From Kribbella solani (GTDB lineage Bacteria; Actinomycetota; Actinomycetes; Propionibacteriales; Kribbellaceae), in the NCBI RefSeq assembly GCF_014205295.1, contig NZ_JACHNF010000001.1:310001-374000 (forward strand): DNA of 64,000 nucleotides, in the 5' to 3' direction. A program made the position numbers and the translations under genes. The notes below the pieces were generated by a model. That model had not been told where the DNA came from, did not search any database, and saw nothing but the letters and a program-made list of their open reading frames with translations. Of the stretch, positions 28,508 to 38,846 are shown in pieces. Position 1 is the stretch's first letter. Every line of letters begins with the position of its first letter.

Positions 28508-28579
28508 TGGGGTATGGGGTAATTGGCAGCCCGTCTGATTCTGGTTCAGTTAGTCTAGGTTCGAGTCCTAGTACCCCAG
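28508..28579 (+). tRNA. tRNA-Gln (CTG)
   Basis: Cloverleaf with acceptor TGGGGTA (28508-28514) / TACCCCA (28572-28578), discriminator G, T arm GTTCGAGTC, and anticodon loop TTCTGGT giving anticodon CTG. CCA is not encoded (the next bases are CGG). Confidence 0.95.
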
Positions 28580-28657: not shown

Positions 28658-28733
28658 GGCCCCGTTGTGTAGCGGCCTAGCACGCCGCCCTCTCAAGGCG
28701 GTAGCGCGGGTTCGAATCCCGTCGGGGCTACCA
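28658..28733 (+). tRNA. tRNA-Glu (CTC), CCA encoded
   Basis: Acceptor GGCCCCG (28658-28664) / CGGGGCT, discriminator A (28730), then CCA (28731-28733) in the DNA. Anticodon stem CCGCC/GGCGG, loop CTCTCAA, anticodon CTC. It lies 78 bp after tRNA-Gln and probably on the same transcript. Confidence 0.96.
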
Positions 28734-37460: not shown

Positions 37461-37491
37461 TTACCCTCTACGGGTTGTCAGAACAAGGCTT

Positions 37492-37590
37492 GCGAGACCG
37501 AGGAGGTGAGGCGCTGATGAACAGCGATCCCTCCAGACATACCGGTCTCGCTCGACCTTCGAAGGGCTGACTCTCTCTCAGCTTTCCTTC
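37492..37590 (+). promoter_or_regulatory. Structured 5' leader of corA (candidate cis-regulatory RNA)
   Basis: Three nested stems: P1 GCGAGACCG (37492-37500) with CGGTCTCGC (37543-37551), P2 GGAGG (37502-37506) with CCTCC (37530-37534), and P3 CGCTG (37512-37516) with CAGCG (37522-37526). P2 hides the uORF ribosome binding site and the P3 loop shows its ATG. A second hairpin, GAAGG-GCTGA / TCAGC-ttt-CCTTC (37561-37590), contains the uORF stop codon. Confidence 0.65.
37517..37570 (+). CDS. 17-aa leader peptide upstream of corA
   Basis: ATG 37517 after GAGGAGGTGAGGCGCTG encodes MNSDPSRHTGLARPSKG, TGA 37568-37570. Two Pro codons (CCC, CCT) are present. It lies in the structured leader, 85 bp upstream of corA. 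Proline-containing leader ORFs control Mg2+ transporter genes in enterobacteria (mgtL, corL); a similar role here is inference. Confidence 0.6.
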   Translation: MNSDPSRHTGLARPSKG

Positions 37591-37655
37591 AGCAGTTGCG
37601 GGTCGGGCAGACGTGCGTCCATCACTCACCCTGTTCCACCGCATCTGGAGGACTC

Positions 37656-38846
37656 ATGTCCGACCTGCGCCTTCGCTCGTTCCGGGCGTTCAGCCGTACC
37701 CCGTCCCTGCGCGCCGCCGCCCGTAAGAGCGCCGCTGCCCGCAAGCACGCGGCCGCCGCCGCTGCCGCCACCGGCGCGCTCGAGCCGGCCGAGAAGCAGG
37801 GCCGCGATCCGCAGAAACCCAAGGGGCACAGCGTCGTCGACAGCGCGATCTACTGCGACGGCCGCCGGGTCTCGTCGCCGGTGTCGCTCGCGGAGACGTA
37901 CGGCGCGCTGCACGAAGCGCCGCACAGCCTGGCCTGGATCGGCCTGTACCGGCCGGACCGGCGCGAGCTGGCCTCGCTGGCGGACGAGTTCGACCTGCAC
38001 GAGCTGGCGATCGAGGACGCGAACGAAGCGCATCAGCGGCCGAAGCTGGAGCGCTACGGCGACACGTTGTTCGTGGTGCTGAAGGCCGCGCGGTACCGGG
38101 ACGCGACCGAGCAGGTCGAGTTCGGTGAGGTGCACGTGTTCGTCGGACCGGACTTCGTGGTCACCGTCCGGCACGCCGAAGCGCCCAACCTGGCAGCGGT
38201 TCGGCGCCGGGTCGAACGCGATCCGGAGCTGCTCAGCCGCGGCGCCGAAGCTGTTCTGTACGCGATCATGGACAAGGTCGTCGACGGGTACGCGCCGGTG
38301 GTGGCCGGCCTGGAGAACGACATCGACGAGATCGAGACCGAGGTGTTCCGCGGCGACCCGAAGGTGTCCCGGCGGATCTACGAACTGTCCCGCGAGGTGA
38401 TCGAGTTCCAGCGCGCCACCCGGCCGTTGATCGGCATCCTGGAGCAACTCCGCGGCGGCTTCGAGAAGTACGGCGTGGACGAGGAACTGCAACGTTCACT
38501 GCGGGACGTGGCCGACCACGTCACCGAAGTGGTGGAGAAGGTGGACGGCTTCCGCGAACTGCTCCGCGACATCCTGACCGTGAACGCGACCCTGGTGGCC
38601 CAGCAGCAGAACGAGGAGATGAAGAGCCTCACCATCGCCAGCAGTGAGCAGAACGAAGAGGTGAAGCGGATCTCTGCCTGGGCGGCGATCCTGTTCGCGC
38701 CGACCCTGATCGGCACCGTCTACGGGATGAACTTCGACAACATGCCGGAGCTGCACTGGCAGCTCGGATACCCGTTCGCGATCGGCCTGATGGCCTTGGT
38801 GTGTGTCGGTCTGCACCAGATCTTCAAACGCCGCGGCTGGCTCTGA
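37656..38846 (+). CDS. corA: CorA-family Mg2+/Co2+ transporter
   Basis: 396 aa. The C-terminal pair of membrane helices contains the selectivity motif YGMNF, and the preceding long helical funnel is visible (ELSREVIEFQRATRPLIGILEQL...). The N-terminus has a 40-residue Arg/Ala-rich extension (RTPSLRAAARKSAAARKHAAAAAAA) before the usual cytoplasmic domain. ATG 37656 with GGAGG five bases upstream. It is the only gene of its transcript, preceded by a structured uORF leader. Confidence 0.95.
   Translation: MSDLRLRSFRAFSRTPSLRAAARKSAAARKHAAAAAAATGALEPAEKQGRDPQKPKGHSVVDSAIYCDGRRVSSPVSLAETYGALHEAPHSLAWIGLYRPDRRELASLADEFDLHELAIEDANEAHQRPKLERYGDTLFVVLKAARYRDATEQVEFGEVHVFVGPDFVVTVRHAEAPNLAAVRRRVERDPELLSRGAEAVLYAIMDKVVDGYAPVVAGLENDIDEIETEVFRGDPKVSRRIYELSREVIEFQRATRPLIGILEQLRGGFEKYGVDEELQRSLRDVADHVTEVVEKVDGFRELLRDILTVNATLVAQQQNEEMKSLTIASSEQNEEVKRISAWAAILFAPTLIGTVYGMNFDNMPELHWQLGYPFAIGLMALVCVGLHQIFKRRGWL

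Follow-up and report, generated by a model that had tools for sequence, protein, structure and literature searches.

A conserved short leader open reading frame upstream of corA and other Mg2+ uptake genes in Actinobacteria

The corA locus of Kribbella solani

The leader described here lies in a 64,000-nucleotide stretch of the Kribbella solani genome (the window), in which leuC and leuD are followed by a 13-bp inverted repeat, a gap of 196 nt, a corA gene and an HU-like gene. The corA leader contains a short upstream open reading frame (uORF) with its own Shine-Dalgarno (SD) sequence, embedded in a nested hairpin (Table 1). Four genes for CorA are present in the host genome, and the leader model matches just one leader there. 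The same leader is found in named Kribbella records, together with a CorA that is 83-93% identical.

The inverted repeat (37407-37419/37447-37459), which lies between leuD and the leader, is perfect, with a G+C-rich centre and without a T run. Two weak Rfam matches to miRNA families proved to be this repeat and were discarded. A possible -10 element of a leader promoter comes straight after the repeat, and reading of the sequences shows TACCCT or TATCCT at the corresponding place in the majority of Kribbella leaders and also in some of the other corA leaders. A sigma-70 scan found no promoter for the leader. Elsewhere in the window, an Rfam scan located two ordinary tRNA genes (28508-28579 and 28658-28730).

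Table 1. Positions of corA and of the features of its leader in the window
Feature	Position	Strand	Evidence or remark
Possible -10 element TACCCT of leader promoter	37462..37467	+	Sequence reading only
Nested hairpin P1-P3	37492..37551	+	Fold z -3.0; RNAalifold consensus for 38 leaders; pair counts, P1 covarying
P1 stem	37492-37500/37543-37551	+	MFE fold
P2 stem	37502-37506/37530-37534	+	SD GGAGG paired with CCTCC; MFE fold
uORF Shine-Dalgarno GGAGG	37502..37506	+	Paired in P2; invariant in 38 leaders; SD-led start in relatives too
P3 stem	37512-37516/37522-37526	+	ATG 37517-37519 opens the P3 loop
uORF MNSDPSRHTGLARPSKG, 17 aa	37517..37570	+	Frame open in 38/38 Kribbella genomes
Core codons GAT CCC TCC AGA (D-P-S-R)	37526..37537	+	Matches [E/Q]PPS elsewhere; contains CCTCC
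Candidate stem P4	37551..37607 (CTCGACC 37551-37557 with GGTCGGG 37601-37607)	+	5' arm inside uORF codons L-A-R-P
corA Shine-Dalgarno region TCTGGAGG	37644..37651	+	Complementary to uORF CCTCCAGA (37530-37537), by sequence reading
corA, proposed regulated gene	37656..38846	+	TIGR00383 above cut-off, PF01544

The uORF and nested hairpin in Kribbella

The nested-hairpin leader is present in all 38 Kribbella genomes, and every one of them keeps the uORF SD, the start codon (ATG, at times GTG) and the open frame. The codons CCC-TCC-AGA are likewise found in 38 of 38, preceded by a codon for D or E. The distance from the start codon to [DE]P, across the P3 loop, falls into five length classes, all of them multiples of 3. 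Because only whole codons are gained or lost here while the frame is kept, the uORF is a coding sequence with a selected frame. An earlier note, made from the letters of the window, had pointed to two Pro codons in the uORF; the first is invariant in the genus and the second (in LARP) nearly so.

The same note described three nested stems, with a strong SD in P2 and the uORF start codon in the P3 loop. The minimum free energy (MFE) fold of 37480-37595 (-48.4 kcal/mol, z = -3.0, equalled in stability by 1 of 200 shuffles) has these stems and places both elements accordingly, and RNAalifold, given the 38 aligned leaders of the genus, returned identical P1-P3 stems unprompted. Across the 38 leaders, 98.3% of the cells in P1-P3 are paired, as against 31-47% with slid partners. 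Cells changed on both sides number 17 versus 6.9 in shuffles, and nearly all of these are C-G to U-A changes in P1. The P1 stem covaries; its paired substitutions change the encoded residue (Gly/Asp/Asn), which points to selection on RNA pairing in P1. P2 is invariant, and so no covariation evidence comes from it. A further feature described in the note, a second hairpin that contains the uORF stop and is followed by a pyrimidine-rich run, exists in the window but is not conserved: of 37 leaders tested, just 1 has the hairpin, that of the window itself. With no terminator-like site, it was rejected as a conserved terminator, and a scan of the leader for intrinsic terminators found none.

Two other pairings involve uORF sequence. 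All seven pairs of candidate stem P4 are possible in 37 of the 38 leaders, a somewhat favourable count because the partner was picked as the best complement; the stem is absent from the MFE fold. Its variants include GGTCGAG, GGCCGGG and GGTCAGG, some of them matched by changes in the other arm. The position of P4 relative to corA is nearly constant across the Kribbella leaders, and P4 would be the most natural read-out in this genus. The second pairing involves CCTCC in the P-S codons of the core (37530-37534), which is complementary to the SD of the uORF and likewise to that of corA. The pairing of CCTCCAGA with the corA SD is good in Kribbella, and TCTGGAGG may serve there as an alternative pairing partner of CCTCCAGA. 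As a general switch this pairing was dropped, as it was not seen by eye in other genera. The last 40 nt before corA are C-rich in four leaders (C 0.35-0.45, G 0.23-0.28), which is suggestive only of a rut-like site.

The uORF family upstream of corA in other Actinobacteria

Comparison with relatives, as called for in the earlier note, gave a divided answer: the stems are conserved within Kribbella but are not common to other genera, whereas the uORF core is. A covariance model of the hairpin, run against 245 genomes of the order, found nothing credible outside Kribbella; one weak match (E = 9e-4) lies inside a coding gene resembling cmk and was judged to be chance. The three-stem layout is a Kribbella elaboration and not a general motif. 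Because the stems change while the uORF core stays, the covariance model misses the family outside Kribbella, and the wider family was found by reading the leaders of corA orthologs picked by protein.

In many actinobacterial families, corA orthologs are preceded by an SD-led uORF of 9-34 aa with the form M(x)2-4[E/Q]PPS. It occurs in Nocardioides, Terrabacter, Micromonospora, Jiangella, Arthrobacter, Modestobacter, Goekera, Luteimicrobium, Myceligenerans, Isoptericola, Prescottella, a Frankiaceae MAG and others. Examples are MSGEPPSRRPRS, MRSEPPSHAPQG... and MSSQPPSTS, the last with only nine residues. Among 110 loci selected by CorA, an EPPS-type uORF is present in 33 and most lack it; many of the loci without it are likely to be paralogs.

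Other Mg2+ uptake genes behind the same uORF

Pattern scans for the uORF took in four sets of genomes: 394 from the class, 346 from the phylum, 178 from a second class and 141 from a single family. For every match fetched, the gene behind it was identified, and duplicates were removed. Since the total number of pattern matches was no higher than that of a reversed-pattern control (in one scan), only matches with a Mg2+ transporter gene behind them were counted. The distinct uORFs number 112: corA is the next gene in 94 (38 of the Kribbella type and 56 of the EPPS type), mgtE in 8 and a gene for an MgtE_N-domain protein in 10. Two additional uORFs, beginning MDEPPSR..., precede a P-type ATPase gene. 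The uORF is associated with at least four unrelated kinds of Mg2+ uptake gene across Actinobacteria.

The mgtE products behind the uORF, all from one genus whose family is seemingly that of Prescottella, score above the TIGR00400 cut-off. Behind the MgtE_N-domain gene (PF03448, with CBS domains, PF00571) comes an Nramp gene (PF01566; the two that were scanned gave E = 6e-72 and 2e-85). The Nramp products carry DxxG and TxxT motifs, an ion-site replacement that marks the Mg2+-transporting NRMTs (PMC8806188), and by these motifs they are NRMT-like. Such an arrangement, an MgtE_N+CBS gene with an NRMT-like Nramp gene behind it, occurs in several deep actinobacterial lineages (loci L354-L361). No MgtE membrane domain was found in the MgtE_N+CBS product of L354, and the pair looks like a regulatory protein with its transporter. 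The best matches of the one P-type ATPase scanned are to models of Mg2+-translocating ATPases, although its partial ORF remains below the full-length cut-offs; the uORF-led ATPase appears mgtA-like. A single uORF, MSEPPSP..., the sequence of which overlaps an SLC41-like MgtE gene (PF01769) at the gene's start, can be included in the family only tentatively.

The 62 loci fetched from three of the scans comprise 36 before CorA, MgtE or MgtE_N genes, 2 before the ATPase gene and 1 before the SLC41-like gene. No Mg2+ transporter was found at the remaining loci; most of those examined proved to be within genes or antisense to them, and such matches were discarded. Also discarded was a long ORF beginning MNTQPPS (L279), the start of which merely resembles the motif.

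Core residues and codons

Codon usage was determined in an unbiased set, the 110 loci chosen by CorA with peptides found by translation. In the 33 EPPS-type uORFs of this set, the core Ser codon is always AGT (33/33), a codon that accounts for only 2.0% (34/1660) of the Ser codons in the genes behind these uORFs. CCT encodes the first Pro in 25 of 33, compared with 3.4% in the downstream genes (56/1635), and the second Pro uses all four codons. Both the peptide core and particular codons thus appear to be under selection. The CCT codon fits pairing to the uORF SD. For AGT no pairing explanation was found; it might be a slow A-site codon after Pro-Pro.

All 38 Kribbella uORFs have an acidic residue before Pro; elsewhere the residue there is acidic in 50 of 74 and Gln in 24 of 74. 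Pro-Pro is present in 74 of 74 uORFs outside Kribbella, and a single early Pro in all 38 within the genus, the window included. Of the three features acidic residue, first Pro and second Pro, no version of the uORF lacks more than one. Changes of E to Q or D to N abolish the effect of the enterobacterial MgtL peptide (PMC11282234), and with Gln in so many of the EPPS-type uORFs, destabilization by acidic residues alone does not fit some members. The Gln cases suggest that the slowness of Pro-Pro adds to acidic destabilization.

Relationship to known systems

Control of Mg2+ uptake in Actinobacteria is poorly known outside the mycobacterial M-boxes. Rfam scans of the window and 20 relatives, with the M-box (ykoK) included, gave no match at gathering score for the leader, and nothing relevant to the corA leader at E up to 10. 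They also revealed no sequence family shared with mgtL or corL. No description of the uORF family was found in a full-text search of open-licence papers. Within Rfam and that literature, no RNA motif with the layout given in the earlier note was found described before actinobacterial corA. The uORF is of a known kind, the leader ORF of a Mg2+ transporter, but the family and its spread appear to be new.

Among the closest parallels is mgtL, which is also a short leader ORF of a Mg2+ transporter gene; it has acidic and Pro codons right after the start, as do many of the uORFs here, and its leader forms alternative structures, as the present leader may do (PMC11282234). Ribosomes dissociate at the EPDP sequence of MgtL in low Mg2+, sparing mgtA from termination (PMC11282234). 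The actinobacterial uORF differs in its peptide ([D/E/Q]P(P)S rather than EPDP), its tolerance of Gln, its leader folds and its phylum, and its response to Mg2+ is a prediction. The mgtQ ORF, between mgtC and mgtB of Salmonella, is likewise short; its early acidic codons abort translation, freeing the RBS of the Mg2+ transporter gene, and are needed for mgtB translation via alternative stems (PMC8092293). There, acidic residues are required and Pro is not; the actinobacterial uORF always has Pro, but its acidic residue can be replaced by Gln. The corL ORF is also part of a structured corA leader, and its translation is inverse to corA expression (PMC11552253). A published corA motif is limited to Gammaproteobacteria (PMC6429828), and the actinobacterial leader has no Rfam match.

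Two riboswitch-type systems also invite comparison. Mycobacterial leaders of pe20 and rv1535 are actinobacterial, linked to Mg2+ and equipped with uORFs, and act by translational control together with Rho (PMC12810186); they have an M-box aptamer, which the corA leader lacks. The Thioalkalivibrio mgtE motif is a structured mgtE leader as well, but is confined to one proteobacterial genus and was described as a candidate riboswitch, not as a uORF (PMC11109978).

A proposed model of Mg2+ sensing and its alternatives

By analogy with mgtL, corL and mgtQ, the uORF is probably a Mg2+-responsive leader ORF, at which ribosomes would stall or abort on [D/E/Q]P(P)S in low Mg2+ and so raise expression of the transporter. 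In this model, low Mg2+ would cause ribosomes to stall or fall off at the early [D/E/Q]-P-(P)-S codons, and the site of the halt would govern folding of the remaining leader. In Kribbella, translation to the uORF stop would place the ribosome over the 5' arm of P4; after an abort at D-P-S, this stem would be free to form. The halt site would also decide between three states of CCTCCAG: bound to the uORF SD, bound to the corA SD or masked by the ribosome. This could change corA translation initiation, Rho-dependent termination or both, giving higher corA expression under Mg2+ shortage. That Mg2+ is the signal, that ribosomes stall or drop off, and how the leader reads this out are all inferred from the analogy.

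The broader proposal, held with moderate confidence, is that M(x)n[D/E/Q]P(P)S defines a phylum-wide family of leader ORFs, with AGT fixed outside Kribbella, in which the ribosome senses Mg2+ to govern CorA, MgtE, MgtE_N/NRMT and MgtA-like genes. The element would have moved between importers or arisen repeatedly, independently of mgtL/corL and of riboswitches. The suggestion of the earlier note, that this is an independent actinobacterial version of the Pro-containing mgtL and corL leader ORFs, gains support from the presence of the same core before corA, mgtE, the MgtE_N/NRMT operon and the mgtA-like ATPase gene. If the proposal is true, ribosome-based sensing of Mg2+ is not peculiar to enterobacteria, and one leader ORF common to four unrelated kinds of uptake gene defines a Mg2+ regulon by sequence alone. 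The uORF would also predict Mg2+ specificity for uncharacterised Nramp/MgtE_N operons, and the family, with members as short as MSSQPPSTS, offers a minimal natural sequence for ribosome stability at Pro-Pro and acidic codons.

One might instead expect the uORF to sense slow Pro decoding or Pro-Pro bond formation in general (as affected by EF-P, the TrmD-made m1G37 of tRNA-Pro or antibiotics), with Mg2+ involved indirectly or not at all. The invariant Pro-Pro outside Kribbella, the tolerance of Gln at the acidic position and the use of mostly CCT or CCC for the first Pro would all suit such a sensor. However, Kribbella has just a single early Pro, and the genes behind the uORF all serve Mg2+ uptake although they belong to unrelated families, for which Mg2+ is a better fit than general translation stress. 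A general proline sensor is considered unlikely.

It is less likely still that the RNA is the conserved entity and the peptide incidental; CCTCC would then act like an anti-SD, concealing the SD of the uORF and perhaps pairing with that of corA. The invariance of P2 and the complementarity of CCTCC to the corA SD in Kribbella, the excess of the rare CCT codon (25/33) and one GGGGG/CCCCC combination (L201) argue for such a role. Against it, EPPS is kept although P2 is interrupted in many CCC-type uORFs and in most MgtE_N/NRMT uORFs, an MgtA-type uORF (L352) has CCG-CCG, and P2 leaves AGT unexplained.

A dedicated riboswitch, M-box-like or new, that binds Mg2+ directly and has the ORF as a structural by-product would account for the compact nested hairpin and its covariation in Kribbella. 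This is very improbable, given the lack of an Rfam match at gathering score in the window or 20 relatives and the finding that the ORF core, but not the stems, is common outside the genus. Actinobacterial mRNAs commonly carry short SD-led uORFs, and this one could be an ordinary leader ORF that aids initiation of the transporter gene or mRNA stability without regulation; conservation of a specific core and of codons across unrelated Mg2+ transporter genes makes such a role equally hard to credit. The conserved core might suggest a small trans-acting, MgtR-like peptide acting on the transporter, but this is the least probable reading, since some members have only nine residues, conservation is limited to the core, no membrane segment is apparent and the uORF is always in cis just upstream.

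Possible divergent forms

Three corA leaders of Nocardioidaceae (L132, L138 and L143) lack the EPPS-type uORF and have a different conserved, SD-led uORF, MHSDS[RC]R..., right before corA, which is possibly a diverged form without Pro in its core. SD-led short ORFs upstream of corA in Frankia sp. CIT1 (L171, MSPGHSPRLSW...) and Pseudonocardia (L182, MAGDSPSPAQ...) may be further variants. Finally, an SD-led ORF, MRRRSSVADAEPSHSS..., with E-P-S-H, lies about 290 nt upstream of mgtE in one genome (L288, genome G505) and may be a distant variant.
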